Shown here: piece by piece, positions 39,574-62,651 of the stretch | Position numbering within the stretch: position 1 is the stretch's first letter | Layout: each line of letters opens with the position of its first letter | Origin: Colwellia sp. PAMC 21821 | Lineage (GTDB): Bacteria > Pseudomonadota > Gammaproteobacteria > Enterobacterales > Alteromonadaceae | DNA length: 64,000 nt | Direction: 5' to 3' | NCBI RefSeq assembly: GCF_002077175.1 | Contig: NZ_CP014943.1 | Coordinates: 186,001-250,000, forward strand | Position numbers and translations under genes: made by a program | Notes under the pieces: generated by a model | The model's database searches: none | What the model saw: the letters and a program-made list of their open reading frames with translations, nothing else | Told to the model about the DNA's origin: nothing

Positions 39574-39590
39574 GTTCCGCCAAGCGAAAC
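39574..39590. promoter_or_regulatory. IclR-type site 1, upstream of the TRAP operon
   Basis: GTTCC-GCCAAGC-GAAAC fits the dyad RTTCY-N7-GRWAY found at four other promoters in this half of the window. It ends 15 bases before the TRAP binding-protein start, where a bound protein would block initiation. The divergent gcdH start is 185 bases away. Confidence 0.6.
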
Positions 39591-39605
39591 ATAAGGTATT
39601 TTTTG

Positions 39606-40682
39606 ATGAGTCGAAAAATGAACATCATAAGTCAGTTTTTCAAAGTAGCTATATTAACAACCGCTGCTTTAAGTGTGGTACCTGCTTTAGCTGCAACAGT
39701 GCTTACCTATGGTGAACCTGGGCCAAATCGTGGCGCCCGTGCTAGTGCAACCAAATGGTTTGCACAGGAAGTTGAAAAACGCTCTGGTGGTGATTTAAAA
39801 ATTGATATTATGTGGGGTGGTGCTTTATTTAAAGCAAATGCCTCGCGACAATCTATCGCTGCAGGCGTAGTCGATATGGGCACTATTATTCCCGATTACT
39901 TTCCCAAGGAGATGGTGTCTTTTACGCTTACTAACTTACCTTTTGAAAATCTTGATCCTTGGGTTGGTTTAAAAACTAATTTTGAACATATGAAATCCTC
40001 TGAAGTTACCAGTAATTTAGCAGAGCAAAACCTATCCTTCGTCACTTCATACATGCTCTCCAACGTTATAGTGCTATGTAAAGGGAGCGCCGTTCGAACA
40101 CTTGAAGATATTAAAGGTAAAAAAATTCGTGGTGTTGGTACCTTCGGTAAAATATTTGGCGATTTGGGAGCGAATTTGGTCAGCATGAGCATTTATAAAG
40201 CTTATCAGGGATTAGGTAACGGCTTACTCGATTGCAGTCTTGGTTATATGAGCGCCACAATTGCCTTAAAGCAACATGAGGCGTCTGACAGCCTAACCAA
40301 GCTCAATTGGGGCACTTATACCGGATTAGGAATATTTATAAATAAAGATACGCTAACAAAATTAAGCCCCTCTCAGAGAAAGGTAATAGATGAAGTTGGC
40401 GCTGACTTTATCAATTACCTTGGTGAAAATATAATGCAAGCTGACAAAAGAGCAGAAGACTTATTGACGCAAGGGATTGACGGGCGCAAGTTGGAAATTA
40501 TTACTCTCTCCTCTTCAGATTCAGCTCAACTTTATGCAGCGAGCCAATATCATATTACGAAATGGGAAAAAGAAGCCAATGAAAGTGGCCTAGCCGGAAA
40601 AACCATGGTTGAAAACTACAAAGCAGCTCTTAAAAAATATAGCCAAAAACGAGATCAAAATGGCTACCCTTGGGCTCGATAA
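39606..40682 (+). CDS. TRAP transporter periplasmic substrate-binding protein (DctP family)
   Basis: Binds an organic acid in the periplasm for the TRAP permease. The protein has a signal peptide of about 30 residues (FFKVAILTTAALSVVPALA) and DctP features: YGEPGPNRGARASATKWFAQEVEKRSGG, LPFENLDPW and the IKGKKIRGVGTFG segment that usually contributes the carboxylate-binding Arg. ATG 39606 is chosen over the TTG three bases earlier. The permease genes follow directly. Substrate is unknown; the surrounding CoA genes suggest a carboxylic acid that is activated to a CoA thioester. Confidence 0.9.
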   Translation: MSRKMNIISQFFKVAILTTAALSVVPALAATVLTYGEPGPNRGARASATKWFAQEVEKRSGGDLKIDIMWGGALFKANASRQSIAAGVVDMGTIIPDYFPKEMVSFTLTNLPFENLDPWVGLKTNFEHMKSSEVTSNLAEQNLSFVTSYMLSNVIVLCKGSAVRTLEDIKGKKIRGVGTFGKIFGDLGANLVSMSIYKAYQGLGNGLLDCSLGYMSATIALKQHEASDSLTKLNWGTYTGLGIFINKDTLTKLSPSQRKVIDEVGADFINYLGENIMQADKRAEDLLTQGIDGRKLEIITLSSSDSAQLYAASQYHITKWEKEANESGLAGKTMVENYKAALKKYSQKRDQNGYPWAR

Positions 40683-40812
40683 CTTAAATACACCCGTTTC
40701 ATTAATGAGGTTTTCTACTTTTAAGGCATAAAAAAAGCCAATAGCGGCTTATTCTAACCGGTAGAAATGATCACAACGTTAGTAAAATTGGTATCACATA
40801 GAGTTTAATATT

Positions 40813-41343
40813 ATGTTGAAAAAAATGGAACAAGGGGCATTGATTGTAGCTGGCGTTTGCATTATCACGCTCGGCTTAATGATCACGCTAACAGTTGTTA
40901 CACGCAACCTTTTTGGATGGGGAGTAACTGACGATGTTGTTATCGTTCGAGAGCTCATGGTAGGAGCCGTTTTTCTGCCGCTAGCTTATGTCACCGCAGA
41001 TTACAGTCACATCACCATAGAATTCTTATTCAAACGTTTAGGTATGCACACCCGATTATGGATGCTTGCCATTGGCTCTCTTATCAGCCTATTAATATTG
41101 CTGCCAATTGCATTCGCTGCATGGCAAGGTTTTTTTCACGCAGCAAGCAGTGGCGCTTATTTTTTTAGTCAATTAGATCTGCCTGAGTGGCCTGGTAGGT
41201 TTGCCTTTTTTGCTGGGGCAGCACTATTTATTATACGTTTAACAATAATTTGCGTTGCTGATTTTCGAGCAGCACTCAGTGGTAATACTAAATATCTCGA
41301 GCAGCGTTCTGACCCTGCTTACGATACAATTGAAGAGGGTTAA
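40813..41343 (+). CDS. TRAP transporter small permease (DctQ family)
   Basis: A 176-residue inner-membrane protein with four hydrophobic segments (about 8-30, 45-65, 85-108 and 133-152) and the DctQ hallmark TRNLFGWGVTDDVVIVRELMVGAVFLPLAY. It pairs with the large permease gene that starts four bases after its stop. The 130-bp gap after the binding protein holds a short GCC/GGC hairpin that could lower expression of the permease relative to the more abundant binding protein. Confidence 0.9.
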   Translation: MLKKMEQGALIVAGVCIITLGLMITLTVVTRNLFGWGVTDDVVIVRELMVGAVFLPLAYVTADYSHITIEFLFKRLGMHTRLWMLAIGSLISLLILLPIAFAAWQGFFHAASSGAYFFSQLDLPEWPGRFAFFAGAALFIIRLTIICVADFRAALSGNTKYLEQRSDPAYDTIEEG

Positions 41344-41346
41344 TCT

Positions 41347-42687
41347 GTGGATCCATTGATGCTTGGGCTTGTCGGGTTTGCCTGTACGTTGCTTTTACTG
41401 ATGTTTCGTGTACCAATCGCCTTTAGTTTGGCTGGCGTATCATCGGTATTTATATTTTTATTTTTTGCTATGCGAAACGGTGGTTTTGACATTGACATAG
41501 CGGTGGCACCGGCACTGACTATGATCTCGTCTAACGCCTTCGATTTAGTGCATTCTTATGATCTAAGTATGATACCGCTATTCGTACTTTTAGGTCATAT
41601 TGCCTACCATACCGGTATCACTACTGATATTTACCATGCTGCACGGGTTTGGCTAAAACGCTTACCTGGCGGCGTGGCTATGGCATCTGTTTTTGGCTGT
41701 GGTGGCTTCTCCGCTATTACCGGTTCTAGCATCGCTTGTGCTTCAGCGATGGGTAAAATCTGTGTGCCTGAAATGCTACGCATGGGTTACGATAAGCGTC
41801 TAGCTACCTCAACTGTTGCGGTGGGTGGCACACTTGGTTCACTTATCCCACCTAGTGTTCTATTTATTGTTTACGGAATTTTTACTGAAATGTCCGTTAG
41901 CCGTCTGTTTTTGGCAGGTATTATCCCTGGCCTGCTCTCTCTAGTCGGTTTTTTAGTCGTTATATATATCTGGGTAAAGCGTAACCCAAGTGATGCACCG
42001 GCTGATACCACGTTACTTGTCAAAGGTGATCGCCGAAAGGCCGCTATAAGATGTTGGCCGGCTATGTTACTTTTTACTATTATTATTGGTGGCATTTATG
42101 GTGGTATATTTACGGCTACTGAGGCCGCTGCTATTAGTGCATTTTCGGTAATCATTATTGGCGCTTTACAGAAACGACTTAATTGGCAGCAATTTATTCA
42201 ATCCATTAAGGAAACTTGTACACAAACCACGACTATCTTCTTTATTGCCGCCGGTGCAAAGATTTTTGTTGGCTTTGTAGCGCTAACCGGTATGGCACCA
42301 GCATTGGTTGGTTTGATTGAGTCTGCTGACGTATCACTATGGGTATTACTGGTGATGATCGCTGGTGTATATTTCTTACTAGGTATGTTTCTTGATCCAT
42401 TAGGTATTATGGTACTTACCCTGCCTTTCTTAATTCCTATGGTAGAAGGTTATGGCTTAGACTTAATTTGGTTTGGTGTCGTCGTGATAAAGTTGCTTGA
42501 AATAAGCTTGATCACTCCGCCGGTAGGATTAAACGTTTTTGTTATCGCCAGTGTCACTAAACCTTCGGTAGCGGTATATGACATTTTTATGGGCGTTACA
42601 CGTTTTCTGGTCATGGATGTATTAGTACTTATTGCGATTATAGCGTTCCCGATACTGTCGCTGCTATTGCCTAACTTTATGATGTAG
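41347..42687 (+). CDS. TRAP transporter large permease (DctM family)
   Basis: A 446-residue sodium-coupled transport subunit with about 12 membrane segments. Recognisable DctM blocks are FRVPIAFSLAGVSSVF, SITGS-type AITGSSIACASAMG, GGTLGSLIPPSVLFIVYG, TATEAAAISAF and LLEISLITPPVGLNVFVI. The GTG start at 41347 has GAGGG upstream and lies four bases after dctQ, so the genes are translationally linked. Together with the preceding two genes it forms one TRAP system. Confidence 0.92.
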   Translation: MDPLMLGLVGFACTLLLLMFRVPIAFSLAGVSSVFIFLFFAMRNGGFDIDIAVAPALTMISSNAFDLVHSYDLSMIPLFVLLGHIAYHTGITTDIYHAARVWLKRLPGGVAMASVFGCGGFSAITGSSIACASAMGKICVPEMLRMGYDKRLATSTVAVGGTLGSLIPPSVLFIVYGIFTEMSVSRLFLAGIIPGLLSLVGFLVVIYIWVKRNPSDAPADTTLLVKGDRRKAAIRCWPAMLLFTIIIGGIYGGIFTATEAAAISAFSVIIIGALQKRLNWQQFIQSIKETCTQTTTIFFIAAGAKIFVGFVALTGMAPALVGLIESADVSLWVLLVMIAGVYFLLGMFLDPLGIMVLTLPFLIPMVEGYGLDLIWFGVVVIKLLEISLITPPVGLNVFVIASVTKPSVAVYDIFMGVTRFLVMDVLVLIAIIAFPILSLLLPNFMM

Positions 42688-42692
42688 TCTTG

Positions 42693-42934: not shown

Positions 42935-43735
42935 TTAAAAGCGAATTAACGTTGCTTCGATGTTACGCACCATACTTTTTAATTGTGGCGCGACTTCTCC
43001 ACTCAAAAACTCTTTCGACAACCTAAATGCTGGGCCACCGGCATTGAATACATAAATTTGCCCTTGAGTGAGCTTCAGCGGTACTGCAATGGCATTGGTA
43101 TCTCGTTCCCAATCGCCCCAAGAATGACAAAAACCAAATTCTTTGTAGCTTTCCAACGCTTGATCAACGCCAGCTTTAACAGTCTCAAATTTATCACCGA
43201 GTTTTTCTTTAAAATGTCTCATAAAGAATTCACGTTCTTCTTCTGACAATGCCACTAAATAAGCTCGGCCTGCTGCCGTAGTTGCCATCGGGATTTTATC
43301 GCCAATATCTTTTTTAAAGGTAACAATATCTTTGGGCGCGCAATGATCAACATAAATCATGTCAAGTCGATCTCTGTCTGCCAGGCCTATCGATGTTCCG
43401 GTTTCAATGGAAAGTTCTTTCATTTGAGGGTTGGCGACTTGACGAATGGCAAGATTTGACACAAATGCGTAACCCAAAGCCAATACACCAGCGCCAAGTT
43501 GGTACTTTTCTAAACGCTTTGAATAAGTCAGGTAGCCCAAATTTGTTAAGGTATAAGTTAACCTTGATATACTCGATTTAGGCAAACCTGTGCGTTGAGC
43601 TATCTCCTGATTACCAAGAAATCCATCTCCCGGGTTAAATGCCCGTAATATATCTAATCCTCTGGCAAGCGCTTCGACAAATTTACGATCGACTTCCCCA
43701 TTTGTATCTCTTGGCATACCCGTTGGTGTATTCAT
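42935..43735 (-). CDS. IclR-family transcriptional regulator
   Basis: A 266-residue regulator with an N-terminal winged helix (about 15-75; GNQEIAQRTGLPKSSISRLTYTLTNLGYL) and an IclR ligand domain (about 90-260; LADRDRLDMIYVDHC, PMATTAAGRAYLVALS and NAIAVPLK). Regulators of this family commonly control aromatic or organic-acid catabolism with acid or CoA effectors. It lies between the TRAP genes and the CoA-thioester genes. Five sites with IclR-type geometry occur at promoters around it, so I infer that it controls the region. A palindrome AAAACGTTTT lies 55 bases upstream of its start. Confidence 0.9.
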   Translation of the reverse strand: MNTPTGMPRDTNGEVDRKFVEALARGLDILRAFNPGDGFLGNQEIAQRTGLPKSSISRLTYTLTNLGYLTYSKRLEKYQLGAGVLALGYAFVSNLAIRQVANPQMKELSIETGTSIGLADRDRLDMIYVDHCAPKDIVTFKKDIGDKIPMATTAAGRAYLVALSEEEREFFMRHFKEKLGDKFETVKAGVDQALESYKEFGFCHSWGDWERDTNAIAVPLKLTQGQIYVFNAGGPAFRLSKEFLSGEVAPQLKSMVRNIEATLIRF

Positions 43736-44096: not shown

Positions 44097-44546
44097 TTAT
44101 TCAAATTGACGGTTTAATTCTTTTTCTAACAAAGATAATGCCGCGGTTGGCAGCTTAATCTTGCTTTGCATTTCATGGCTATATGAAACAATAATGCTTT
44201 CACTTTTAGCGGCAATTTTTTGATGTGTTTCGCTAAAGATAACTTGGCTTAAAGTGAGCCTATCGCTACTTATTTTCTCAACTTTGGTGGCAATAATCAG
44301 ATTATCGGGATAGGTCACCGGAAATTTAAACTTGCAATCGATATAGGCAACGACAAATCCTAACTTATCGCCCCCAAGGGCAGCTCTGATATTACTGTCA
44401 GTGAAAAATTGCACTCGACCTTCTTCACAGTAACGAAAGTAATTGCTGTTATTCACATGTCCTAACATATCAATATCTCCCCACCTTACAGGGTGTTTTA
44501 ATTGATAAGGATAGTGATGTAATTGATCTTTCAAAATATTCTCCAC
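44097..44546 (-). CDS. 4HBT-type acyl-CoA thioesterase
   Basis: Hotdog-fold thioesterase of 149 residues related to YbgC/FadM and 4-hydroxybenzoyl-CoA thioesterase. The catalytic-region motif VRWGDIDMLGHVNNSNYFRYCEEGR (about 20-44) has the key Asp. It would hydrolyse acyl-CoA intermediates and release CoA. The GTG at 44546 gives the longest frame, but GGAG six bases before the TTG codon at 44534 makes that start equally likely. It is the last gene of the minus-strand run that begins with the NMO-like gene. Confidence 0.85.
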   Translation of the reverse strand: MENILKDQLHHYPYQLKHPVRWGDIDMLGHVNNSNYFRYCEEGRVQFFTDSNIRAALGGDKLGFVVAYIDCKFKFPVTYPDNLIIATKVEKISSDRLTLSQVIFSETHQKIAAKSESIIVSYSHEMQSKIKLPTAALSLLEKELNRQFE

Positions 44547-44619
44547 TTCTAAGACTATAAGCTAACTGCGTGACGGTACCTAAACCACTCCAAACCACTT
44601 GATTTTTCTTAGTGTTAAG

Positions 44620-45018
44620 TTACTCTTTTCTATACCGAAAAACGCCTTGACCTGACGCAATAATATTATCAAAAGAGTCGTATACATCGGCAGCGCCATA
44701 ATAGATATTTCGGCCAGAAGCTGTAACTCTACCAATAGCATAAATTTTGTTTGATTGAGCTTGGCCTAAATAGTTTATATTTAACGATAAAGTTAACGCT
44801 TTTCTATAGTTAAGAGGATCGTCACTGTAGGCACCAGTCAGTGCAGTTGCTGCATCTAATAAAGCTGAAATAAACCCTCCATGTGGGATGCCTGAACGAT
44901 TTAAATGCTCAGGTTTAAGCTCAGCACTCATTTTAATATGATTTTCTCGCCATTCTTCAATCACAAAGCCCAAATGATCATTAAATGGCGGCATTTCTTT
45001 ATTTGCCCAAGGTTTCAT
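44620..45018 (-). CDS. PaaI-type hotdog thioesterase
   Basis: A 132-residue hotdog protein. The stretch LNRSGIPHGGFISALLDAATALTGAYS has the HGG-x-x-x-x-LLD signature of PaaI thioesterases, which remove CoA from aromatic or hydroxyacyl thioesters to relieve CoA trapping. It starts nine bases after the enoyl-CoA hydratase gene, so it is in the same operon. A second hotdog thioesterase follows 73 bp later. Substrate cannot be read from sequence. Confidence 0.85.
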   Translation of the reverse strand: MKPWANKEMPPFNDHLGFVIEEWRENHIKMSAELKPEHLNRSGIPHGGFISALLDAATALTGAYSDDPLNYRKALTLSLNINYLGQAQSNKIYAIGRVTASGRNIYYGAADVYDSFDNIIASGQGVFRYRKE

Positions 45019-45027
45019 TTTAGCCCC

Positions 45028-45762
45028 TTATTTTCTGTTTCTTACTGCTTGAGATTCTTCACTTTGAAGTAACTGTGCAAAAATCACTAACTCCTTGTTA
45101 ATAATATCGGTAAGTATTTTTTGCTGGGGTGCTTTAAGAAGTTTTTTAGTGGTACGTAAGGCATTTTGTGGTTTCAGCGCTAATGCTTTCGCTTTACTTA
45201 AAGCAAAGTCAAATACTTCGGTCTTGTCTATTTGCTGATTAACTATACCGATATTAATTGCCGTTTGGGTATTAAAAGCATCGCCTAACATTAATATTTC
45301 AGCCGCTTTTCGATGGCCGGCTAATTGAGGAATAAGCAAACTCGAACCGCCTTCGGGGCATACACCTAAATCGACGAAAGGCATTTTAAAATAAGTTTCT
45401 GATGCATACACAAAATCAAAATGTAGCAGCATGGTTGCGCCAATACCAACGGCAACACCCGATACGGCTCCAACTATCGGTTTAGGGTAATTATGTAGTT
45501 CATATAATAAAGTAGAAGCCGGCGAAGGTTTATTGACATCCCGATGATTAAAATCGTTTAAATCATTCCCTGCTGAAAACGCATCATCTGTACCGTGTAT
45601 AAGTACGACATTAATACTGTCATCAGAAACACTATCTTTAAGTGCTTTAGCCATAGCCACATACATTAAGCTAGTTAAAGCATTTTTTTTCTCTGGACGA
45701 TGAATACCTATGTGTAAAACACCACTATCTTTGTGTATTAATATATTTTCTTGAAATGTCAT
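45028..45762 (-). CDS. Enoyl-CoA hydratase/isomerase family protein
   Basis: Crotonase-fold protein of 244 residues. The oxyanion-hole segments are FSAGNDLNDF and AVSGVAVGIGATMLLHFDFVYA, and the region FKMPFVDLGVCPEGGSSLLIPQLAG holds the position of one catalytic acid. It lacks Glu at the first crotonase acid position (IGATML), as seen in many isomerases, so it could be a delta3-delta2 enoyl-CoA isomerase rather than a hydratase. It lies 10 bp after the NMO-like gene and 9 bp before the PaaI-type gene, in one operon. A ribosome site (AGGTAG) precedes the ATG. Confidence 0.85.
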   Translation of the reverse strand: MTFQENILIHKDSGVLHIGIHRPEKKNALTSLMYVAMAKALKDSVSDDSINVVLIHGTDDAFSAGNDLNDFNHRDVNKPSPASTLLYELHNYPKPIVGAVSGVAVGIGATMLLHFDFVYASETYFKMPFVDLGVCPEGGSSLLIPQLAGHRKAAEILMLGDAFNTQTAINIGIVNQQIDKTEVFDFALSKAKALALKPQNALRTTKKLLKAPQQKILTDIINKELVIFAQLLQSEESQAVRNRK

Positions 45763-45772
45763 TTTGTTCTAC

Positions 45773-46750
45773 CTATTGGTTGTTCAGTCGATTTAAACGA
45801 GATAGCGCTTGATCGTATTCTGTTTTGAAGCGTTCAACGATAGTAGACACCTTCGTGATCTCCCTAATACTGCCTAACCCTTGACCTGCACCCCAAATAT
45901 CTTTCCAAGCTTTCGTTTTACTACCACCTGATGAGCCAAATTTCATTTTGTTTTTATCGCCCTCTTCCAAGTTATCAGGGTCTAAACCGGCATTAGAGAT
46001 ACTTGGCTTAAGATAATTCCCATGAACACCGGTAAATAGTGAGCTATAAACAATATCTTTCGCGCTATGTTCAACCAACATGTTTTTATATTCTGGTTCC
46101 GCATTAGCTTCTTCAGTGGCAATAAAGCACGTGCCTATATAGGCAAAGTCAGCACCTAAAGCTTGTGCTGATAGTATTGACGCGCCATTAGCAATCGAGC
46201 CAGACAACGCAATAGGCCCATCAAAAAATTGCTTAATTTCACTCACTAAAGCAAAAGGACTCAAGGTCCCAGCATGTCCACCTGCGCCAGCGCACACTAA
46301 AACTAAACCATCTACACCTGCTTCTATGGCTTTTTCGGCGTGACGAACATTGATAATATCGTGAAAAATAATGCCACCATAGGCATGAATACGCTCAACT
46401 AACTTAGGATCTAACGCACGTAAACTGGTGATAATGATCGGCACTTTATATTCAATACAAGTATCTACATCATCCTCTAATCGGTCATTACTCTTGTGAA
46501 CAATTAAATTAACCGCATAGGGCGCAACAATAGCGTTCGGATTAGCTTCCTGATACTGCGCTAATTCAGTTTTAATGGTGGTCAACCATTCAGCAAGTAA
46601 TGACTGTGGACGCGCATTAAGGGCAGGAAAAGAGCCAACAATACCGGCTTTACACTCTGCGATAACTAACTCTGGTCCCGATATGATGAACATGGGGGCA
46701 CTGATGACAGGTAAAGATAATTTATTTTGTAAGGTTTTCGGAATTGACAT
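45773..46750 (-). CDS. Nitronate monooxygenase-like FMN protein
   Basis: FMN-dependent TIM-barrel protein of 325 residues, NMO/2-nitropropane dioxygenase superfamily. Seen blocks are LPVISAPMFIISGPELVIAECKAG (FMN-binding start), GLVLVCAGAGGHAGTLSPFALV with the family His, and IALSGSIANGASILSAQALGADFAYIGT for phosphate binding. Members of this superfamily inside CoA operons can act on enoyl-CoA substrates, as reported for IpdC-type enzymes of steroid degradation, so detoxifying nitronate is not the only option. It starts an operon with enoyl-CoA hydratase and two thioesterases; a terminator separates it from the upstream gene. Confidence 0.85.
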   Translation of the reverse strand: MSIPKTLQNKLSLPVISAPMFIISGPELVIAECKAGIVGSFPALNARPQSLLAEWLTTIKTELAQYQEANPNAIVAPYAVNLIVHKSNDRLEDDVDTCIEYKVPIIITSLRALDPKLVERIHAYGGIIFHDIINVRHAEKAIEAGVDGLVLVCAGAGGHAGTLSPFALVSEIKQFFDGPIALSGSIANGASILSAQALGADFAYIGTCFIATEEANAEPEYKNMLVEHSAKDIVYSSLFTGVHGNYLKPSISNAGLDPDNLEEGDKNKMKFGSSGGSKTKAWKDIWGAGQGLGSIREITKVSTIVERFKTEYDQALSRLNRLNNQ

Positions 46751-46782
46751 TTTTATCCCCTAGAACATATTTGCTGTGATAA

Positions 46783-46818
46783 AAAATTAGCGATACCAAA
46801 AAAGGTATCGCTAATTTT
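46783..46818 (-). terminator. Terminator between the FadJ-like gene and the NMO-like operon
   Basis: A 15-bp perfect stem (46783-46797 with 46804-46818) around six A residues, followed by a T-run on the minus strand. It ends the synthetase-thiolase-FadJ transcript. Confidence 0.88.
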
Positions 46819-46831
46819 GTCACTCTTTTAG

Positions 46832-48931
46832 CTATTGGCTGTTTGCCCATTGAGTTAAGGTCTTACCTTCCGCAACAAGTTGTTTTAATAATGCAGCAGG
46901 TTGCCAAAACTCTTCACCGTAAGTTTCGCCGAATTCACATATAGTTTGATAGATTTTTTCTAAACCTATGCTCTCAGCATAAAACATTGGGCCACCTCGA
47001 TAAGCTGGAAATCCATAACCGAAGGCGTAAACCACATCAATATCACTTGGGCGTTGTGCAATACCTTCTTCAAGTATTTTGAAGCCCTCGTTGATCAAAG
47101 CAAAAGTTAAACGTTGTAAAATAGTTTCATCATCAATTGCTTTACGCACAACCCCTCTTTGCTTGGCTTGTGCTTCAATAACCTCAAGTACTAGCGGGTC
47201 TGACATACGCTGTCTTGTGTCGGGATCATATTGGTAATAGCCTGCACCGGTTTTTTGACCTAAACGGCCCATGTCATATAAAGCATCAGCAATGCAGTAG
47301 GTTCTAACATCCCCCTTTTCTTCATCAGTTAAACCCTCACGCGCTTTATAGCCAATGTCTATCCCAGCTAAATCACCAACAGCGAGCGGTCCCATTGCCA
47401 TACCAAAGTTTTGCATTACGGTGTCTATACCTTGAGGTGTTGAGCCTTCAAGTAAACATAATTGGGCTTCACGCGCATATTGACGCAACATACGGTTACC
47501 AATAAAGCCATAACAAACGCGAGACAGTGCCGGCACTTTTTTAATGGTTTTAGCAATCGCCATCGATGTCGCTAGCACTTGATCAGAGGTTTTTTCACCA
47601 CGTACAATTTCAAGTAATTTCATTACATTAGCAGGACTAAAGAAATGCAGACCAATAACATCTTGTGGACGAGAAGTTGACTCTGCGATTAAATTAACGT
47701 CTTGATAAGAAGTGTTACTGGCTAAAATAGCACCGGGTTTACACACGTTATCAAGCTTAGCGAATACTTGCTTTTTGATGTCTAGGTTTTCAAAAACGGC
47801 TTCAATCACCAAATCCATATCAGCTAAGTCGTTATAATCTGTGGTGCCTGTGATCAGCTCTTGGCGTTGTACGGCGAGCTCAGCAGTCAATTTACCTTTT
47901 TTAACTGTCATCGCGTAATTTTTAGCGATAATATCTTTACCACGCTGCAATGCTACATCGTTAATTTCCAGTAAAGTCACAGGGATACCCGCATTAACAA
48001 AATTCATTGCAATACCTCCTCCCATGGTACCGCCACCAATAATGCCCACGTGTTTAATATCTTTTAGCTGAGTATCTTTTGGTAAATCTTTAATTTTTGA
48101 GGACATTCTTTCGGCAAAAAACATATGACGTAATGCCGCAGACTGCGATGAGTTCATACACTCTATAAATAAACGCCTTTCAACTTTAAGACCTTCATCA
48201 AAAGGTTTATTCATAGCCGCTTCAATACATTCAACAATACGTTGAGGCCCTTCTTGATGCCGATATCGCTGACTTAATTTCGCTCTACAATCAGCAAAAA
48301 AATTATCTAATACACTTTCCTTATCAACCTCTATATCTCTTACTCTTCTAACTACAGCCCCTTGTTCAACAACTTCTTGGGCAAACTTAATCGCTGAAGT
48401 CAGTAAATCGCCTTCAACTACTTTATCAATTAAGCCGATACTCAGGGCTTTATCTGCCGAAATTGGTACACCGGTAGTAATTAAGTCCATTGCGGCTTTA
48501 ACACCGACCAACCTAGGTGCTCTTTGTGTTCCACCAGCGCCAGGCAACAAACCTAATTTAACTTCAGGTAAACCAACATTCGCCGTGGCCAATGCACAAC
48601 GATAGTGACAAGCCATGGCTGTTTCTAAACCACCACCAAGTGCTGTGCCATGAATGGCAGCAATAATAGGCTTAGTAAATGCTTCTACAACATTAAGCAG
48701 CTCAGGTAACGATGGCAACATAGGCGGTTTACCGAACTCTGAAATGTCTGCCCCTGCGATAAAAGTACGCCCTTCACACATCAAAACTAATGCTAATGAT
48801 TCATCATCTTTTGCTTGCGCTAATACCGATTGAATTCCTAACCTTAAGGCATGAGAAAGCGCGTTAACTGGCGGGTTATTTAAACGAATAACACCAATAT
48901 TACCTTCTAATTGATAACTAACAACTGACAT
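46832..48931 (-). CDS. Bifunctional enoyl-CoA hydratase/3-hydroxyacyl-CoA dehydrogenase
   Basis: A FadJ/FadB-like fusion of 699 residues that hydrates an enoyl-CoA and oxidises the 3-hydroxyacyl-CoA. The N-terminal crotonase part has FIAGADISEF, GTALGGGLETAMACHYRCA and LPEVKLGLLPGAGGTQR with both catalytic Glu. The dehydrogenase part begins at about residue 297 with VGIIGGGTMGGGIAMNFVNAG and has the catalytic His in GLHFFSPANVMKLLEIV. It is 26 bp after the thiolase gene and shares its operon. The pairing with a separately named thiolase is as in fadIJ-type sets, but specificity may be for an unusual acid. Confidence 0.92.
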   Translation of the reverse strand: MSVVSYQLEGNIGVIRLNNPPVNALSHALRLGIQSVLAQAKDDESLALVLMCEGRTFIAGADISEFGKPPMLPSLPELLNVVEAFTKPIIAAIHGTALGGGLETAMACHYRCALATANVGLPEVKLGLLPGAGGTQRAPRLVGVKAAMDLITTGVPISADKALSIGLIDKVVEGDLLTSAIKFAQEVVEQGAVVRRVRDIEVDKESVLDNFFADCRAKLSQRYRHQEGPQRIVECIEAAMNKPFDEGLKVERRLFIECMNSSQSAALRHMFFAERMSSKIKDLPKDTQLKDIKHVGIIGGGTMGGGIAMNFVNAGIPVTLLEINDVALQRGKDIIAKNYAMTVKKGKLTAELAVQRQELITGTTDYNDLADMDLVIEAVFENLDIKKQVFAKLDNVCKPGAILASNTSYQDVNLIAESTSRPQDVIGLHFFSPANVMKLLEIVRGEKTSDQVLATSMAIAKTIKKVPALSRVCYGFIGNRMLRQYAREAQLCLLEGSTPQGIDTVMQNFGMAMGPLAVGDLAGIDIGYKAREGLTDEEKGDVRTYCIADALYDMGRLGQKTGAGYYQYDPDTRQRMSDPLVLEVIEAQAKQRGVVRKAIDDETILQRLTFALINEGFKILEEGIAQRPSDIDVVYAFGYGFPAYRGGPMFYAESIGLEKIYQTICEFGETYGEEFWQPAALLKQLVAEGKTLTQWANSQ

Positions 48932-48957
48932 AAACTTAATTCCTTACTTTTAGAAAG

Positions 48958-50157
48958 TTAAACACGCTCAATAACGACAGCGATACCTTGACCAATACCA
49001 ATACACATGGTCGCTAATGCGTATCGACCACCCGTTTTTTCTAATTGGCGTAATGCCGTTAGCATAATTCGCGTACCGCTTGCCCCCAAAGGATGTCCAA
49101 TCGCAATCGCGCCACCATTTTGATTAACACGGGGGTCGTCAAAAGCGATACCTAGTTGTTTCATGCAGCCTAGCGCTTGTACAGCAAACGCTTCATTGAA
49201 TTCTAAAACATCCATATCAGCTAATGTTAAACCGGCTCTTGCTAAGGCTTTTTGTGAAGCAGGAACTGGCCCTAAGCCCATAACACGTGGAGGTACGCCG
49301 GCGATCGCGCCCGCTATAATTCTACCCCGAGGTTTTATACCTGCTTTTTCACCCACTTCTTTACTACCAATAATCATGGCAGAAGCCCCGTCGTTAATGC
49401 CTGATGCATTGCCGGCGGTTACTACGCCATCAAATAATGGCCTTAATTTACCAAGCGCTTCTACCGTTGAAGCTGGGCGTGGATGCTCATCAGTTACAAC
49501 AGAAATTTTCGGCAACTTACGGCCTTGTGACACTTCGACAGGAATAATTTCACCAACAAAGTACCCTGCTACTTTTGCTGCTTCATACTTAGCTTGTGAG
49601 CTGGCAGCAAATACATCGCAGTCTTCTCTACTAATATTTAAATCACTAGCAATGTTGTCAGCGGTTTCAGGCATCGAGTGACCGCCATAGGCATTAATAA
49701 TTTCGGGGTTAGTAAAACGAGCCCCCATGGTGGTATCAAAAATTTCTTGCTGGCGAGCAAAGGCTGAAGTGGCTTTAGCTAAAACAAATGGCGCGCGGCT
49801 CATCGACTCAACACCACAAGCGATAAATAGCTCACCTTCATTGGCTTTTACACATCGAGCAGCATCTAACGCCGCCGACAAGCTTGAACCACATAAACGG
49901 TTAACAGTTAAACCACCGGTTTCAATCGGTAAACCAGCTAATAGCCCCGCAAAACGAGCCACATTGCGGCTGTCTTCGCCAGCTTGATTGGTACTGCCAG
50001 CAATAACATCTTCATAAAGGCTCAAATCAAACTCGCTGCGTTGCACTAAAGTTTTTATAAGGTGTGCGAGCATATCATCTGGTCGAACAGAGGATAAAAT
50101 TCCGCCATGACGTCCAAAGGCAGTTCTTGCGGCATCGTATATATATGCATCTTTCAT
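48958..50157 (-). CDS. Acetyl-CoA acyltransferase (thiolase)
   Basis: Biosynthetic/degradative thiolase fold of 399 residues. The nucleophile is Cys89 in NRLCGSSLSA; His355 is in NGGAIAIGHPLGASG and Cys385 in MCIGIGQG, so the catalytic set is complete. The start KDAYIYDAARTAFGRHGGILSSVRPDD resembles 3-oxoadipyl-CoA/3-ketoacyl-CoA thiolases of the PcaF/PaaJ type. It lies between the acyl-CoA synthetase (60 bp) and the FadJ-like gene (26 bp) and would perform the last, cleaving step of the ring- or chain-shortening cycle. No frame problems are seen. Confidence 0.93.
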   Translation of the reverse strand: MKDAYIYDAARTAFGRHGGILSSVRPDDMLAHLIKTLVQRSEFDLSLYEDVIAGSTNQAGEDSRNVARFAGLLAGLPIETGGLTVNRLCGSSLSAALDAARCVKANEGELFIACGVESMSRAPFVLAKATSAFARQQEIFDTTMGARFTNPEIINAYGGHSMPETADNIASDLNISREDCDVFAASSQAKYEAAKVAGYFVGEIIPVEVSQGRKLPKISVVTDEHPRPASTVEALGKLRPLFDGVVTAGNASGINDGASAMIIGSKEVGEKAGIKPRGRIIAGAIAGVPPRVMGLGPVPASQKALARAGLTLADMDVLEFNEAFAVQALGCMKQLGIAFDDPRVNQNGGAIAIGHPLGASGTRIMLTALRQLEKTGGRYALATMCIGIGQGIAVVIERV

Positions 50158-50217
50158 AATTTTTCCTTATAACTTTGTATTAAACTTTATGGTGTACTAA
50201 CGGTTAAAATAGCTCAC

Positions 50218-52071
50218 CTAATTAATGAAACGGGTGTAATTAACTAAGACAGGAAAGGCAATTAGTAATTTAGCGACTTTTTGTTTGTCTTGTAGGTTTG
50301 ATAACTTAATATGAACAATCTGACCTTTTTCCGGATCAAATTCTGATGTGATTTGCGCGGTAATGTCATTTTTTTTCAACAAAGCATTAACGCTATATTC
50401 AGTGGCTTTGTTACGTAATATCGGTTTAAAAACTTTACCAACAGCCGTTAATGGAAAACCATCAAGTATTTCGACTCGCTTAGGAATTGCCGCTCTTTCG
50501 CTAATGTGTGCTTGGCAATGTAGTAATAATTCAGCTTCAGTCGTTTGTTGCTTATCTTTTAACACCACATAGGCAACAGGTATTTCACCTGAATGAGCAT
50601 CAGGCTGTCCAATAGCTACTGACTGAATGACATTAGCATGGGCTAACAATGCATCTTCAATAATTTGTGGATCAATGTTATGACCACCACGAATAATTAA
50701 ATCTTTTGCTCGACCCGTGAGCTGAATATGCCCTAATGCATTGATCACACCTAAATCACCGGTATTAAACCAATCACCTTCTACCCAGGCGCCATCATTA
50801 TCATTTTCGTCTAAATAGCCTTGAAAAACATTAGGTCCTTTCACCAAAATAATGCCAGGTTCGTTAGATGCGCATGTGCGGCTAATTTTATTATCAATTA
50901 ATTCAGCAGCAATCACCCGGCTATAAGGTATAGCATTTCCGACAGCAACTCCTGCAACATCGTAGCCAGGGAGAACCCTAGCAACTACACAAGAAGACTC
51001 TGTCATACCGTAGCCATTAGTCACATTACAATTAAATCGTTGTTGAAAAGATAATTTTAGTTCAAGCGGTAAAGGTGCTGAACCGCAAGCCGCATGTTCA
51101 AAGCATTTTAAGTCGATGTTTTCATCAGGTTGCTGTAACAAAACAGAAATAATTGTCGGTACGGTAGGAAACCAACATACTTGATATTTATTAACAAAAT
51201 ACCACCAGTTTTTCACTGTATTAGGATTTCTAAAACCTTCAGGGGTCATAATAACAACGGTGCGGCCCACAAAGAACATCGCTAAACTTGCGGCAATAAC
51301 ACCAAAGACATGAAATAATGGTAATGCATTTAAAACCGCAGATTTACCATGATAAGCATTAAATCCTGCATAAACTTGCACAACAAAACTGATATTATCA
51401 TGAGATAGTTTTGCTATTTTAGGACGGCCAGTTGTACCACCAGTATGAAAATACATCGCAATATCATCACCTTTGGGCCGTAGACTTTGCGCCAGTTTCT
51501 CACTCGATTGAGTAGATATTCCTTGATTAAAATCAGTGACGGTTAAATTTTTATTACTGATTTCACCATGGTTATTGTCGAGTACTATAATATGTTCAAG
51601 TGTAGGTACGCGTGCAATAATTTCATGCACTTTATTTCCTAATTCCGTTCCTTCATCAAGTGAAACAGTAACTAATACCTTAGTTTTTACCTCATTTAGT
51701 ATTTCTATTATGTGATCAACTTGCAGCAGATAGTTAATCGGATTGGCAATTCCAACCGCTTGTGCAGCCCACATACTAAGATGAGTTTCAGTCAAATTGG
51801 GCAGCAAAATAGAGACAACATCAGTTCGACCAACGCCAAAATTTTTATATAGATTTGCTGTTTGATTAAGTTTATTGGTTAAAGTGGCAAACGTTATTTG
51901 TTTCGCGACTTCATCTCGGTCCGCAGTAATATGTTCAGCTATTGCGATATCAGCCGGATATTCATCTGCAGCATGGCAAAAAACATCATAAGTTGTTTTA
52001 CAATGATATCGGTCTTGGTAACTTATTTTTTCTAAATCAGCAAGTAACTCTAATTCTGTTGGTTTGGACAT
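50218..52071 (-). CDS. AMP-binding acyl-CoA synthetase
   Basis: ANL-family ligase of 617 residues that activates a carboxylic acid with ATP and CoA. The phosphate loop is YFHTGGTTGRPKIAKLSH (the usual SGTTG-x-PKG is altered), followed by NGYGMTESS, WFNTGDLG, LIIRGGHNIDP and a final VGKVFKPILR with the catalytic Lys. A C-terminal extension of about 70 residues follows this lysine and is longer than usual. It is the first gene of its operon; an IclR-like site lies 76 bases upstream of its start. It is the probable entry enzyme of the pathway; the acid is not identifiable. Confidence 0.9.
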   Translation of the reverse strand: MSKPTELELLADLEKISYQDRYHCKTTYDVFCHAADEYPADIAIAEHITADRDEVAKQITFATLTNKLNQTANLYKNFGVGRTDVVSILLPNLTETHLSMWAAQAVGIANPINYLLQVDHIIEILNEVKTKVLVTVSLDEGTELGNKVHEIIARVPTLEHIIVLDNNHGEISNKNLTVTDFNQGISTQSSEKLAQSLRPKGDDIAMYFHTGGTTGRPKIAKLSHDNISFVVQVYAGFNAYHGKSAVLNALPLFHVFGVIAASLAMFFVGRTVVIMTPEGFRNPNTVKNWWYFVNKYQVCWFPTVPTIISVLLQQPDENIDLKCFEHAACGSAPLPLELKLSFQQRFNCNVTNGYGMTESSCVVARVLPGYDVAGVAVGNAIPYSRVIAAELIDNKISRTCASNEPGIILVKGPNVFQGYLDENDNDGAWVEGDWFNTGDLGVINALGHIQLTGRAKDLIIRGGHNIDPQIIEDALLAHANVIQSVAIGQPDAHSGEIPVAYVVLKDKQQTTEAELLLHCQAHISERAAIPKRVEILDGFPLTAVGKVFKPILRNKATEYSVNALLKKNDITAQITSEFDPEKGQIVHIKLSNLQDKQKVAKLLIAFPVLVNYTRFIN

Positions 52072-52146: not shown

Positions 52147-52163
52147 ATTCTGCAATGCGGAAC
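52147..52163. promoter_or_regulatory. IclR-type site 2, upstream of the acyl-CoA synthetase operon
   Basis: ATTCT-GCAATGC-GGAAC fits the RTTCY-N7-GRWAY dyad. It is 76 bases upstream of the synthetase start on the minus strand. Confidence 0.6.
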
Positions 52164-52322
52164 TAGATTTTGCAAGTGTTTTTAAAAAGCTATTCTATGT
52201 ACTTTATAAAGTCATTAAACAATAACAGTTCAGTTTGAAAAATAAATAGCCGATAAACGCGAGAAACTTGATTGAATACATCCAATTGATAAAAATTAAA
52301 AACAGCTACATTGCAAAATTAA

Positions 52323-52339
52323 ATTCCGCAAAGCGGTAC
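52323..52339. promoter_or_regulatory. IclR-type site 3, upstream of the 455-residue transporter
   Basis: ATTCC-GCAAAGC-GGTAC fits the same dyad. It lies in the 546-bp divergent region between the synthetase (minus) and the transporter (plus), closer to the transporter side than site 2. The rest of this region shows no gene except the possible short N-terminal frame discussed with the transporter. Confidence 0.6.
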
Positions 52340-52617: not shown

Positions 52618-53985
52618 GTGATTATTTTTTTAGCGACCTTGATAACAGAATGGACTGGCTACCAGCCAACAGCACTTTTGGCTGTATTTGTGCTGATAAT
52701 ATTTATTATTGTTGAGTGGAAATCTCTAGACTTATCAACAAAAATAATCGCATTGGTTGCTATTGGCTTAACAATTTCATTGTTATTATTGTCTCAAATA
52801 TCATTACACCAGTTGGGCATGTTAAGTCGCAGTGTCGTTTTTTTTGCATTCTTTTTAATTGCCCTTGGCCTATTAAAAGAAGCTGCCTTAAGTTCAAATT
52901 CAGTTAACCTCACCGGTCATGTGCTTTTACAGCAACACCCCGTCAGACGTTATGCTCTGCTTAGCTTTGCCAGCCATATTTTGGGCATATTAATGAGTAT
53001 TGGTGCCATTAATTTATTAGGCACGATGATCCAGCGAAGTTTACTTGAAAATAAAGAGACCGTTGACACACGAATCAGCAGTGCAAGGCAGCGGCGTATG
53101 ATGTTGGCAGTATTGCGAGGGTTTTGTAGCATACCTTTGTGGGCACCTACCTCTATCACCATTACGCTTTTAGTAACTACCATTCCTAATTTACAATGGA
53201 TAGATATTATTCCCTATGGCTTATACCTCACCCTAGCGTTACTTTTATTTGGTATTTGGCTCGACCATGTTCAGGCGCCCAAACATCTTAGACATCTTGT
53301 ACCAACAATTTCCAACAATTTATCCGACTTGAAAGTGAGTTACCCCATTATTATTGTTGTCTTCACCTTAGCAACAATATCTGGGCTACTCATACTCTCC
53401 ACACCATTACGCCCAATTTCTGCCGTGTTAGTCAGTGCGCCGATTGTCAGCATTGCTTGGATATTTGCTCAGTATCGTCGTTCGTATAATAAATTAAGCG
53501 CCGTGCGATTAACCATAAAGCGATTTAGAACCGACATATTTTTTAGATTACCGTTACAACGCTCAGAAATCGTCTTCTTTGCAGGATCGGTTCTTATTGG
53601 ACGTTTGTTATTAGCGGTGTTTGATCTTGACTGGTTTGCACAGCAATTAGCCGATTTGAATATCTCAGCTGCGCTGATATTAATTGCGGCTTCATGGCTA
53701 ATTTATTTAGCAGCACTGTTATTTGTCAGTCCGATGATTTCGGTCACTTTGATGGCAGGCGCCTTGTCTCAATTACCCAGTGTCGAACATATGCCTGTTA
53801 CCATAGCGCTAGTAATGATGATGACTTGGGCTGTAGTAGCGGGCAGTTCTCCGTCTACTACCTCTGTTCGTATTAGCGCTAGAATAACTGAAATTTCTCC
53901 CTTTGAAATGGGGGTAAAGTGGAATGGTTTATATAGCATAATAGTGCTATTGGCATTGGATGTTTTTCTTATGCTATTGGTGTAA
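52618..53985 (+). CDS. Polytopic membrane protein, probable ion/organic-acid transporter
   Basis: A 455-residue very hydrophobic protein with about 11 membrane segments and a C-terminal VVAGSSPSTTSVRISARI block. The pattern resembles permeases of the ion-transporter superfamily (ArsB/NhaD/SLC13 or DctM-like folds), but I do not recognise a specific family. The GTG start has no ribosome site. In another frame an ATG at 52542 starts a 24-codon hydrophilic run (ending LFGCRLYA) that stops right at this GTG, so the real N-terminus may have been lost through a frameshift. The IclR-like site upstream ties it to the catabolic genes. Confidence 0.65.
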   Translation: MIIFLATLITEWTGYQPTALLAVFVLIIFIIVEWKSLDLSTKIIALVAIGLTISLLLLSQISLHQLGMLSRSVVFFAFFLIALGLLKEAALSSNSVNLTGHVLLQQHPVRRYALLSFASHILGILMSIGAINLLGTMIQRSLLENKETVDTRISSARQRRMMLAVLRGFCSIPLWAPTSITITLLVTTIPNLQWIDIIPYGLYLTLALLLFGIWLDHVQAPKHLRHLVPTISNNLSDLKVSYPIIIVVFTLATISGLLILSTPLRPISAVLVSAPIVSIAWIFAQYRRSYNKLSAVRLTIKRFRTDIFFRLPLQRSEIVFFAGSVLIGRLLLAVFDLDWFAQQLADLNISAALILIAASWLIYLAALLFVSPMISVTLMAGALSQLPSVEHMPVTIALVMMMTWAVVAGSSPSTTSVRISARITEISPFEMGVKWNGLYSIIVLLALDVFLMLLV

Positions 53986-55330: not shown

Positions 55331-55371
55331 ATAACAACAAAAAGAACAATTGTTCGATGCACTATATAATA

Positions 55372-55405: not shown

Positions 55406-55521
55406 CATTTTAAGTATCTAAAAACAGCGAAGTAAAGCTCAAATTATGCATTACACTTTTCACTGTAATGAATTACCTTTGATGCTTTATTAGTTTTAAG
55501 ACAAAAGAAAAACTAACAATA

Positions 55522-56124: not shown

Positions 56125-56262
56125 CTATTTTCATCTCTTCGTGCTAAGTTTTTACTGCAAATACGCAAGTATCATTTACAGCTAAAGAGCTGCCCATAGA
56201 TTGAATATGCGAAGTAAGTCTAAAACCTGCAAACTTATGTAGTCACACTTTAAATATTCAGG

Positions 56263-57043: not shown

Positions 57044-59857
57044 TTATTCACCAAATTTATGCACAACACTTATTTTAAATGTACGACCTAAAGGATTATG
57101 TGTAAATGGGTCATAGTTTAAATCTAAACGAGCAAAAGGAGGCTCTTCATCCGTTAAATTACTTACCGTTAAATTAACCTTAGTTTGGTCTTCATTAAAG
57201 ATATAGTTATAGCTTAAATCAAGCTGTACTTGGCTATCAATGACTTGACCTCGAGTGTTAGTAGTAAATAACGAATCTCGCTCATCTTTATAATCACTCA
57301 CATAATAAGCAGATAAGCTAATATTGTGATTATCGAAATCGAAGCTATTGATCATGGTCGCTTTATACTTGGGTATTGGACGATTAGAGTTAGTATTATT
57401 TAGGAAACCAGCTGCGTCAAACGCTTCTGATAAATCATCACCAGCCACTTTATATTCGGCGGTATACGTTCCATTCATGTCCAAGGTCCAATAATCGGTA
57501 ACATTTAAGCGTAATTGAACATCAATACCACTTGTTTTAACATCAGCGCCATTGATTATTTTAGTTTCAATACGTTCAACTGTATTTGCGTTACCTGGCT
57601 CTGTCCATTGCACTTGATCAACATAAGGTTGTTTACCGGCAACTGCTGCAGCTAATACTGCATTATAGTTTTCAACAATGATTGGGTCACTGAGATCAAA
57701 TGACCAAAAATCAACGGTTGCGAACAAGCGATCACCCCAAAATTCACCAATTACACCAAAGTTTAGTGCAACAGCAGACTCAGGTGCTAAGGCATCATTA
57801 CCTTGGGTATCAACCGCTTTAAAAGCGGCAGGAGCCCCAACATAAGAAAGCGTTGTATTACTACCTTCTAGTTGGTTAAGTGTTGGTCCTCTAAAGGTCG
57901 TACTGGCAGAGCCTCGTAATGAGAAGTTATCATTAATGGTATATTGCGCTGATACTTTTGGATCTAAAGTATCACCAACTTCTCCGCCATAATCTTCATA
58001 GCGTAAAGCAATTTGCATTTTTAAATCATCTGTTACGGGTAAGGCTAATTCACTAAATAAAGCATAAATACTTTGTGATGAATCTTGATTTAGCTCACCA
58101 CTACGAAAATGAAAAACACCCGTTGGGTTTGCACAATCGGTTGCTCCAAGGACTGGACATGGGTTTATCGCTAAATTCCCAAGGTCATTAACTTCATTTG
58201 AAAAAGACTCATAACGATATTGAGCGCCAACAGCAAACTCAACAATACCACCATCTAATTCAATATCTAAGTCACCTGACAGTAAGCCATCAAGCACAAG
58301 TAATTCAGTTTCTTTTTGTGAAGTTCTTGTTCCAGAAACATAATCTAACACCTCTTGCGTGTTAGCTAGTTCAGCTTTATAGTTTGGATTAGTCGCGCCA
58401 TTAGAAGCCGATGTTTCAATGCCGTTCGAGAATGGATTAAAATACAAACAGCCGTTTGCACCTGGCACACCCGCTTCCATATCACAATTATCGCCACCAT
58501 AACCAAGTAAGGCATTTTTCAATGGTACGATTAAGGTATCGGGATTGCTGCGATAATCAAGTTTGGAATTTGAATAAGCAAAACCTGTTTCCCAGTTATA
58601 GCCATTATCAAATTTGCCTTCAAGGTCAGCTGCAATTCTATAAGTTTTATAATCTAAACCACCTTCACTTGACGGCCCTGTAACACCTACAGTTCGACCA
58701 ATATAAGCAACACGGTTTAACGACGGATGAGGCGCACTAGCAAATTCTGGATTGCTTGCGACTAAGTCTTGCCATGCCGGATGATAGGTTGGTACATAGC
58801 GGTCTGAAAAATCAACTAATTTTTGTGGTGGATAAGACGGAGAGCCATAAGTGGTTGGTACTTCAGTTTCTGAATACAACACTTCAACATGTAGATTAAC
58901 GTCATTTTTAAAATCATGATTTAATTCACTAAAAACTTTTAAGTGAGTATCACCATCATTTAACGCTGAGAATGGCGTATATTGAAATCGACATAAACCC
59001 GCTTTCGTTCCGCCTAATAATTCACAACCCGGGTCTAATAAATATTTAGGTTGTGCATTATCACCCAGCCAAGCCGCATTAAATATCGATGGTGGATTAC
59101 CAATTGATGACCAGCCACCTTGTGGATTAGTGGCAAAATCTTGTACCGCCCAATCTTTATCCGCTGTGCTTATGGTATTGGTTTTATCATAGCTTACAGA
59201 AGTTACCCAGTGAGTATCATCATTGCCCAGCCCATAGATTAAACCTAAACCATAGTCGCCATCACTATCTTGCAAATTTTTATAGTCAGCTTTTATCTCT
59301 AAACCTTCAAAATCACCTCGGGTTGTAAAGTTAACGACACCTGCAATGGCATCAGAACCATATATCGCCGCTGCACCTTCTTTTAACATGTCTACACGTT
59401 TAACTGCCATTGATGGTATGTCTTGAGTGTTAACATAAAGCATTTGTTGGTCAACAATAGAGTAGGGATTGAATGTATGTCTTTTACCATTAATTAACAC
59501 TAATGTTCGACCTGCCCCTAATCCTCTCAAGTTGATGTTGGAAGTACCTTCTGTGCCGTTAGAGCCGTATTGATTGGAGTTACCTTGAATACCAGAGCTA
59601 ATTGACAATTTTTGTGTCATTTCAACAATTGATGGAGAACCTATTTTTTCTAAATCAGCTCTGCTAATGGTTTGTACAGGTGCTGAAGTTTCAAGTGCTG
59701 AGCCTTTTAAATGAGAACCAATAATTTGAATTTTTTCAATATCTTTTGCATTTGTATTTTTTACTTCTTCGGCATATAAAGTACTGCTGCCCATCAACCC
59801 AAGCACTGCACTAATGGCGATTGTTATGGCGTTTTGTTTTAATCTGGTATTTTTCAT
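57044..59857 (-). CDS. TonB-dependent outer-membrane receptor
   Basis: A 937-residue receptor. Residues 1-29 are a signal peptide (ITIAISAVLGLMGSSTLYA), followed by a TonB-box-like IEKIQIIGSHL, the plug (VQTISRADLEKIGSPSIVEMTQKL, NINLRGLGAGRTLVLINGKRHTF, VKRVDMLKEGAAAIYGSDAIAGVVNF) and a beta-barrel with the terminal block LGRTFKISVVHKFGE. The plug is of the large class used for varied organic ligands. It is divergent from the acyl-CoA dehydrogenase operon; two IclR-like sites lie between them. This suggests import of the same hydrophobic acid that the operon degrades, which is inference. Confidence 0.93.
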   Translation of the reverse strand: MKNTRLKQNAITIAISAVLGLMGSSTLYAEEVKNTNAKDIEKIQIIGSHLKGSALETSAPVQTISRADLEKIGSPSIVEMTQKLSISSGIQGNSNQYGSNGTEGTSNINLRGLGAGRTLVLINGKRHTFNPYSIVDQQMLYVNTQDIPSMAVKRVDMLKEGAAAIYGSDAIAGVVNFTTRGDFEGLEIKADYKNLQDSDGDYGLGLIYGLGNDDTHWVTSVSYDKTNTISTADKDWAVQDFATNPQGGWSSIGNPPSIFNAAWLGDNAQPKYLLDPGCELLGGTKAGLCRFQYTPFSALNDGDTHLKVFSELNHDFKNDVNLHVEVLYSETEVPTTYGSPSYPPQKLVDFSDRYVPTYHPAWQDLVASNPEFASAPHPSLNRVAYIGRTVGVTGPSSEGGLDYKTYRIAADLEGKFDNGYNWETGFAYSNSKLDYRSNPDTLIVPLKNALLGYGGDNCDMEAGVPGANGCLYFNPFSNGIETSASNGATNPNYKAELANTQEVLDYVSGTRTSQKETELLVLDGLLSGDLDIELDGGIVEFAVGAQYRYESFSNEVNDLGNLAINPCPVLGATDCANPTGVFHFRSGELNQDSSQSIYALFSELALPVTDDLKMQIALRYEDYGGEVGDTLDPKVSAQYTINDNFSLRGSASTTFRGPTLNQLEGSNTTLSYVGAPAAFKAVDTQGNDALAPESAVALNFGVIGEFWGDRLFATVDFWSFDLSDPIIVENYNAVLAAAVAGKQPYVDQVQWTEPGNANTVERIETKIINGADVKTSGIDVQLRLNVTDYWTLDMNGTYTAEYKVAGDDLSEAFDAAGFLNNTNSNRPIPKYKATMINSFDFDNHNISLSAYYVSDYKDERDSLFTTNTRGQVIDSQVQLDLSYNYIFNEDQTKVNLTVSNLTDEEPPFARLDLNYDPFTHNPLGRTFKISVVHKFGE

Positions 59858-60034
59858 CTGCTTCCCCGTTATTCACTTTGTTTTATTATGGTTTTAATAT
59901 TTTCAATTAACGGCTATTTGATAACTGCCCAATAACCTTTAATTATTCTGTAAACTGCGATAAATCTCCGCCAGTATTTTGGTTGTAAAGTAACAATAAA
60001 TTCGCACACTAATAAATAAATCCAACTGATACTA

Positions 60035-60051
60035 GTTCTGCCTAGCGGAAT
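60035..60051. promoter_or_regulatory. IclR-type site 4, TonB-receptor side
   Basis: GTTCT-GCCTAGC-GGAAT fits the RTTCY-N7-GRWAY dyad. It is 178 bases upstream of the TonB-receptor start within the 396-bp divergent region. Confidence 0.6.
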
Positions 60052-60209
60052 ATGCAAGTACTTTATTTAACCAATCGTTCCACTAATTGAGTTTTAACTA
60101 AACATCAACAAAGTTTATTTGGAGTAAAAAATAAATCTGCGTTTATTCTTTATTCAGTGAGTATCGAGGTATTAGTTATAATTACATCTTGATATTATAT
60201 TAACCATGT

Positions 60210-60226
60210 GTTCCACTGTGCGGAAT
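60210..60226. promoter_or_regulatory. IclR-type site 5, acyl-CoA dehydrogenase side
   Basis: GTTCC-ACTGTGC-GGAAT fits the same dyad and ends 28 bases before the ATG at 60254. If translation began at the upstream ATG (60206) the site would be inside the gene, which argues for the later start. Confidence 0.6.
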
Positions 60227-62631: not shown

Positions 62632-62651
62632 ATTAGCATTAGGAGTTTACA

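Follow-up and report, generated by a model that had tools for sequence, protein, structure and literature searches.

Five copies of a 17-bp palindrome in the 64-kb window, that is, the whole stretch of DNA analysed, are probably the operators of the IclR-family regulator encoded at 42935..43735 on the minus strand (Pfam HTH_IclR and IclR_C, both above cut-off). Judged from sequence comparison, this protein would act as repressor of one regulon for the uptake and catabolism of medium-chain dicarboxylates. The sites start at positions 39574, 52147, 52323, 60035 and 60210. The first-pass annotation had reported five dyads there and had read them as an IclR regulon; all five are present and, as it proposed, lie between genes. 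A listed open reading frame starting at 60206 would cover the site at 60210, which was counted as intergenic because the start conserved among the orthologues is at the ATG 60254 and their upstream regions are gapped at this position. The proposed IclR regulon is supported by a motif that is non-random in the genome and kept in relatives.

Target genes were assigned by distance and promoter layout. The operator at 39574..39590 (plus strand, GTTCCGCCAAGCGAAAC) is assigned to the TRAP transporter operon dctP-dctQ-dctM (39606..42687, plus strand; Pfam DctP, DctQ and DctM) and has its centre 24 nt before the dctP start. The site at 52147..52163 (minus strand), centred 84 nt before the ligase start, is assigned to an operon at 44097..52071 (minus strand) which encodes, by Pfam and NCBIfam, an acyl-CoA ligase, a thiolase, a FadJ-like and an NMO-like protein, an enoyl-CoA hydratase and two thioesterases. 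Its palindrome (52148-52162) was also called as a terminator-like stem, a by-product of the symmetry. The site at 52323..52339 (plus strand) lies 287 nt before the start of a permease-like membrane protein (52618..53985, plus strand) without any Pfam or NCBIfam match; none of its 57 relatives carries a functional name, and only two are below 55% identity. The site at 60035 is assigned to a TonB-dependent receptor (57044..59857, minus strand; Pfam), 186 nt from its gene. The last operator, at 60210..60226 (plus strand), is centred 36 nt before the ATG at 60254 and is assigned to an operon of three acyl-CoA dehydrogenases (60254..63773, plus strand; Pfam), the second PimC-like and the third PimD-like. 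Catalase-like, flavin-reductase-like and PEBP-like genes (54335-56825) are situated amid the regulon genes and have no motif copy.

The pattern by which the dyads had been recognised, RTTCY-N7-GRWAY, finds the five sites but is too loose on its own. It matched eight times at seven places in the window versus 3.66 expected, and since eight of 100 shuffles gave at least eight matches as well, the pattern alone is not significant. Both additional places, 17053 and 58323, lie within open reading frames; the former falls in the sugar half of the window, where the first-pass annotation had found no copy. Its description of the partly shared centre, GC-N3-GC in four of the five sites, was right, and the usable motif is the 17-mer RTTYYGC-N3-GCRRAAY. 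In leave-one-out trials with a matrix, the omitted site ranked directly after the four training sites in five of five cases across the 64 kb. A scan of the 4.88-Mb genome, which had been suggested as a check, revealed a motif without random scatter: RTTCYGCNNNGCGGWAY with at most one mismatch gave 13 matches at eight places, of which five are the window sites and three lie inside open reading frames of at least 100 codons. As a control, the pattern read backwards yielded nine matches genome-wide, which places the rest of the genome at background level. At the rate of this control, 0.04 matches are expected in 20.65 kb, and the probabilities of at least five matches (about 6e-10) and of five out of five intergenic sites (about 3e-5) are partly circular, as RTTCYGCNNNGCGGWAY was drawn from the same five sites; the relatives provide the independent test.

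An orthologue of this IclR is rare, being present in two of the 295 genomes of the order (E <=1e-40); ten named Colwellia, Paraglaciecola and Glaciecola loci carry the IclR at 89-98% identity. In the 12 genomes with the orthologue, the window genes were mapped and the motif was scored, a copy being defined as a score of at least 15 outside mapped genes. The conservation in relatives on which the first-pass annotation had made its reading depend was evident from 52 copies in these 12 genomes, every one at most 600 nt from the start of a mapped gene. Forty-seven of them lie outside any ATG open reading frame of 100 codons; of the remainder, four are located in upstream extensions of the target's own reading frame and one in an opposing frame. 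Within mapped genes only two scores of at least 15 were obtained, both in PimC. The match in the window's PimC gene (61615, score 15.1), which recurs within the same gene in genome G296 (16.3), was rejected as an operator and is taken as coding.

The dehydrogenase operon has a site in 12 of 12 genomes, centred 32-43 nt before the start, and so does the ligase operon at a distance of 81-142 nt. The TRAP operon is preceded by a site in 11 genomes, 22-53 nt before dctP; in the twelfth, G302, dctPQM is part of the ligase operon, on the same strand after ligase, thiolase and FadJ, and lacks a separate site. A site accompanies the TonB receptor in all seven genomes where the receptor adjoins. The copies thus track their genes through rearrangements. 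In G301, one site lies 109 nt before gcdH and another about 450 nt before a porin that scored 44 bits against the DcaP family (cut-off 27). G300 encodes this porin too, about 560 nt from a site (porin loci L096:7112-8146 and L093). In the sequence fetched from these two genomes, no TonB receptor was detected. Far from the cluster, a copy lies 71 nt before the gene of a 584-residue alpha/beta hydrolase in G296 and G297 (L089:7909, L085:7696). This hydrolase looks membrane-anchored, and the window's genome contains none of this type (E <=1e-30).

The set of targets, comprising TRAP transporter, CoA ligase, PimC/PimD-like dehydrogenases and 3-oxoadipyl-CoA-type thiolase, suggests together with gcdH that the predicted substrates are medium-chain dicarboxylates. 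The thiolase scored above the cut-off of the 3-oxoadipyl-CoA thiolase model NF006001 and the ligase above that of an acyl-CoA synthetase subfamily model. The gene gcdH (38208..39389, minus strand), divergent from the TRAP operon, encodes a glutaryl-CoA dehydrogenase with 630 bits to the solved 3gnc_A; it has no motif copy of its own in the window, and its membership in the regulon is uncertain. The adjoining glutaryl-CoA dehydrogenase and the DcaP-type porin with the same operator in a relative both point to dicarboxylates. The acids would enter through the outer membrane via the TonB receptor, be taken up across the inner membrane by the TRAP transporter and the permease, and be activated with CoA. 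Beta-oxidation of dicarboxylic acids, as far as we infer their exact identity probably odd-chain ones, would then end in glutaryl-CoA. A comparison of the TRAP transporter with solved relatives (best 61 bits) made no ligand assignable.

There is perhaps one chance in several that the regulon serves another acid, either an aromatic ring-cleavage product or an alicyclic or branched compound; of the competing explanations it survives best. Most IclR regulons are devoted to aromatic compounds (PMC8222616), and the nearest NCBIfam subfamily of the regulator is TIGR02431 (PcaR/PcaU/PobR), which it matches with 129 bits, below the cut-off of 285. However, no ring-cleaving oxygenase was present among the 20 open reading frames given to Pfam (38-64 kb), a glutaryl-CoA dehydrogenase that is a true one by similarity lies beside the TRAP operon, the DcaP-family porin of G301 has a site, and the gene content is like that of the azelate cluster (PMC10945470).

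The paper on the azelaic-acid cluster azeTSLR of Phycobacter describes labelled azeloyl-, pimeloyl- and glutaryl-CoA and states that the regulatory targets of AzeR are unknown (PMC10945470). The features it shares with the window, namely TRAP transporter, IclR, PaaI-type thioesterase, acyl-CoA ligase, beta-oxidation to glutaryl-CoA and gcdH (PMC10945470), are complete in the region, the likeness being one of gene content. The TRAP-adjacent IclRs of azelate-like alphaproteobacterial clusters (L138, L139 and L141) are 34-37% identical to the window's protein, and no copy of RTTYYGC-N3-GCRRAAY was found between genes at these three loci; the two matches at L139, with scores of 17.9 and 15.9, fall within genes. 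In view of this identity and the different motif, the IclRs of the Leisingera, Paracoccus and Phaeobacter clusters were rejected as orthologues. Palindromes with the same outer arms and another inner step precede dctP at the three loci, e.g. ATTCCAATATGTGGAAT in L138. They are 17 bp long and RTTCYA-N5-KRGNAY-like (L138:8241, L141:8149, L139:8261), and are candidate operators of sister, AzeR-like IclRs.

Two further systems resemble the cluster. DcaR and DcaS are IclR-type, putative regulators of the Acinetobacter dca cluster, which likewise combines IclR with thiolase, dehydrogenases and a CaiB-type gene (PMC4213383). The A. baumannii locus L134, which from its gene order appears to be the dca cluster, encodes two IclRs of 44 and 41% identity, a dehydrogenase of 74% and a thiolase of 61%, and has four weaker motif copies (13.8-15.6); unlike in the window cluster, MFS transporters replace the TRAP transporter. 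The pim genes serve pimelate in Rhodopseudomonas. The PimC/PimD-like dehydrogenase pair (TIGR03204) is a feature in common with them, but the window's PimC scored 470 bits against TIGR03204, below the cut-off of 624, and the ligase is far below the PimA model (178/706 bits).

The position of the operators relative to predicted core promoters suits a repressor, since they occupy the spacer and -10 box or follow just downstream. Overlap with or direct succession to the core promoter is clear for ligase and TonB receptor, and for TRAP the operator lies downstream. The predicted ligase promoter, TTGCAA-17-CAGAAT (52147..52175, minus strand), has the 3' end of the operator as its -10 box. CAGAAT and the spacing are kept in 12 of 12 genomes, TTGCAA in 11 and TTGTAA in one. 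This also explains the Y at motif position 5, as the A there doubles as second base of the ligase -10 CAGAAT, which is the operator's own end. The predicted TonB-receptor promoter (60029..60057, minus strand) consists of TTGCAT, then exactly the 17-bp operator (60035-60051), then TAGTAT; TAGTAT and the exact spacing recur in seven of seven genomes with an adjoining receptor, the upstream box being TTGCAT in five and TTGAAT and TTGTTT in one each. The hydrolase genes of G296 and G297 share the ligase-type layout (TTGCAA-17-CAGAAT in both). For TRAP, the predicted dctP promoter TTGCGG-17-TACAGT (39523..39551, plus strand) has its boxes at constant spacing (TTGCRG-17-TANAGT) in all ten aligned genomes, and the window operator follows 22 nt further downstream. 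In four genomes (G000, G295, G296 and G297), a TATTAT occurs 7 nt after the permease operator, which places the -35 box inside the operator. The dehydrogenase-operon promoter is ambiguous, since a TATAAT-like box and an invariant TTGA are both candidates. In a generic promoter scan, the predicted promoters did not stand out.

In the mode of action that we infer, for repression and effector as for the substrate, IclR dimers would in the absence of the acid sit on the spacer and -10 box of the ligase and TonB promoters and block transcription. They would likewise occupy the -35 region of the permease promoter and bind just downstream of the start of the TRAP and dehydrogenase operons, until their release by the acid or by an intermediate. 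The paired operators at the window's two divergent promoters are 176 bp (52147/52323) and 175 bp (60035/60210) apart. The TonB/dehydrogenase pair keeps 174-175 bp in five of seven genomes (194 and 201 bp in the others) and the ligase/permease pair 176 bp in three of five (then 188 and 308 bp). Looping between paired operators may be possible. The same regulon under an IclR acting as activator, or combining activation with repression, is unlikely. PcaU-like relatives are activators, and the lack of a clear -10 box at normal distance from TTGA in the dehydrogenase promoter could mean activator dependence, but an operator that fills the -35/-10 spacer at constant spacing (ligase 12/12, TonB 7/7) should let a bound dimer block the polymerase.

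That the sites are bound by this IclR, as repression of the regulon would imply, is suggested by the type of the motif, by its co-occurrence with the regulator and by more distant homologues. The survey of Suvorova & Gelfand 2021 gives GTTYCRYW3RYGRAAC for the group 1 subtype and ATTCC-N7(5)-GGAAT for GenR (PMC8222616). The first-pass annotation had likened the sites to GenR, which holds for the outer arms and not for the rest; group 1 is closer (PMC8222616). The consensus of the 52 copies follows the odd-length group 1 palindrome GKTYCRY-W3-RYGRAMC. Like the group 1 operators described there (GTT-11-AAC / WTT-11-AAW), the sites are 17-bp palindromes with an N3 centre and arms GTTYCRY...RYGRAAC, and those of TRAP and the dehydrogenases fall into the customary -20 to -80 zone; unlike them, they may begin with either purine (A in 34 of the 52 copies, G in 18), and the sites of ligase (84), TonB receptor (186) and permease (287) lie at or beyond this zone (PMC8222616).

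Of the 295 genomes of the order, 17 contain the exact motif RTTCYGCNNNGCGGAAY. Both genomes that encode the IclR orthologue are among them, with all three of their matches inside the cluster, and the other 15 belong to the 293 that lack it. A 40% ligase homologue in a genome lacking this IclR has no site (best score 7.3). IclR homologues with 40-52% identity are encoded at 11 loci (L025-L028, L130-L134, L136 and L143), of which six contain a strong copy with scores of 15.6-23.4. Left out of the analysis were L023, a duplicate of L125 from the same genome, L128 and L129, which derived from a wrong contig, L088, L094 and L067, which contributed nothing, and L014, which was scanned but dispensable. 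The strong copies are found in Mangrovitalea (15.9), Alkalilimnicola (20.5, 20.2 and 18.0), Azospirillum (L132, 23.4), Roseibium (L133, 20.5), A. baumannii (15.6) and G452 (19.1, 87 nt before a 62% PimC); in Azospirillum and Roseibium the motif lies 70 nt upstream of iclR. The best scores at L028, L130 and L143 (12.9-13.6) are within chance, such a level being expected 0.5-0.8 times in one 20-kb locus, and L027 (11.1) and L131 (9.6) have no strong site. Autoregulation is common in the IclR family, and no motif was detected upstream of iclR in the window (best score 4.0), which counts against the repressor-regulon reading and would fit sites of another transcription factor, encoded elsewhere, with the IclR as a bystander. 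This is nevertheless very improbable, as the motif belongs to IclR group 1 by its type and stands near 40-52% IclR homologues in unrelated genomes with other gene content. A chance cluster of look-alikes, to which the loose pattern would have conformed, can practically be dismissed given the conservation of the motif across 12 genomes.

Taken together, the regulon has good support and belongs to a familiar type; a specialist would find it neither surprising nor categorically new. A search of titles and opening lines of abstracts, mostly of open-access papers, turned up no paper on this circuit in Colwellia or Paraglaciecola. The circuit looks newly mapped and its switch type familiar; novelty with respect to the 181 groups of PMC8222616 is not claimed. 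On a more tentative level, at somewhat less than even confidence, RTTYYGC-N3-GCRRAAY may be the code of a whole IclR clade for dicarboxylate beta-oxidation (Colwellia, Paraglaciecola, Pseudomonas, Acinetobacter DcaR/DcaS type, Azospirillum and Roseibium). Its marine members would have operator and promoter fused, spacer and -10 box being the operator, and divergent-promoter pairs kept at 174-176 bp, a spacing that might allow an IclR tetramer to form a loop, while the entry door (TonB receptor or DcaP-type porin) is swapped and the switch is kept.

Little is known about the named candidates of this IclR clade, for which the analysis offers a concrete predicted operator, regulon and mode of action, and the fusion of operator and promoter together with a clade-wide operator makes these regulators testable. 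Azelate and other dicarboxylates act as signals exchanged by algae and bacteria, and they also arise when plastic breaks down. A predicted repressor with known sites that is released by such an acid is therefore directly testable and could serve as a sensor.
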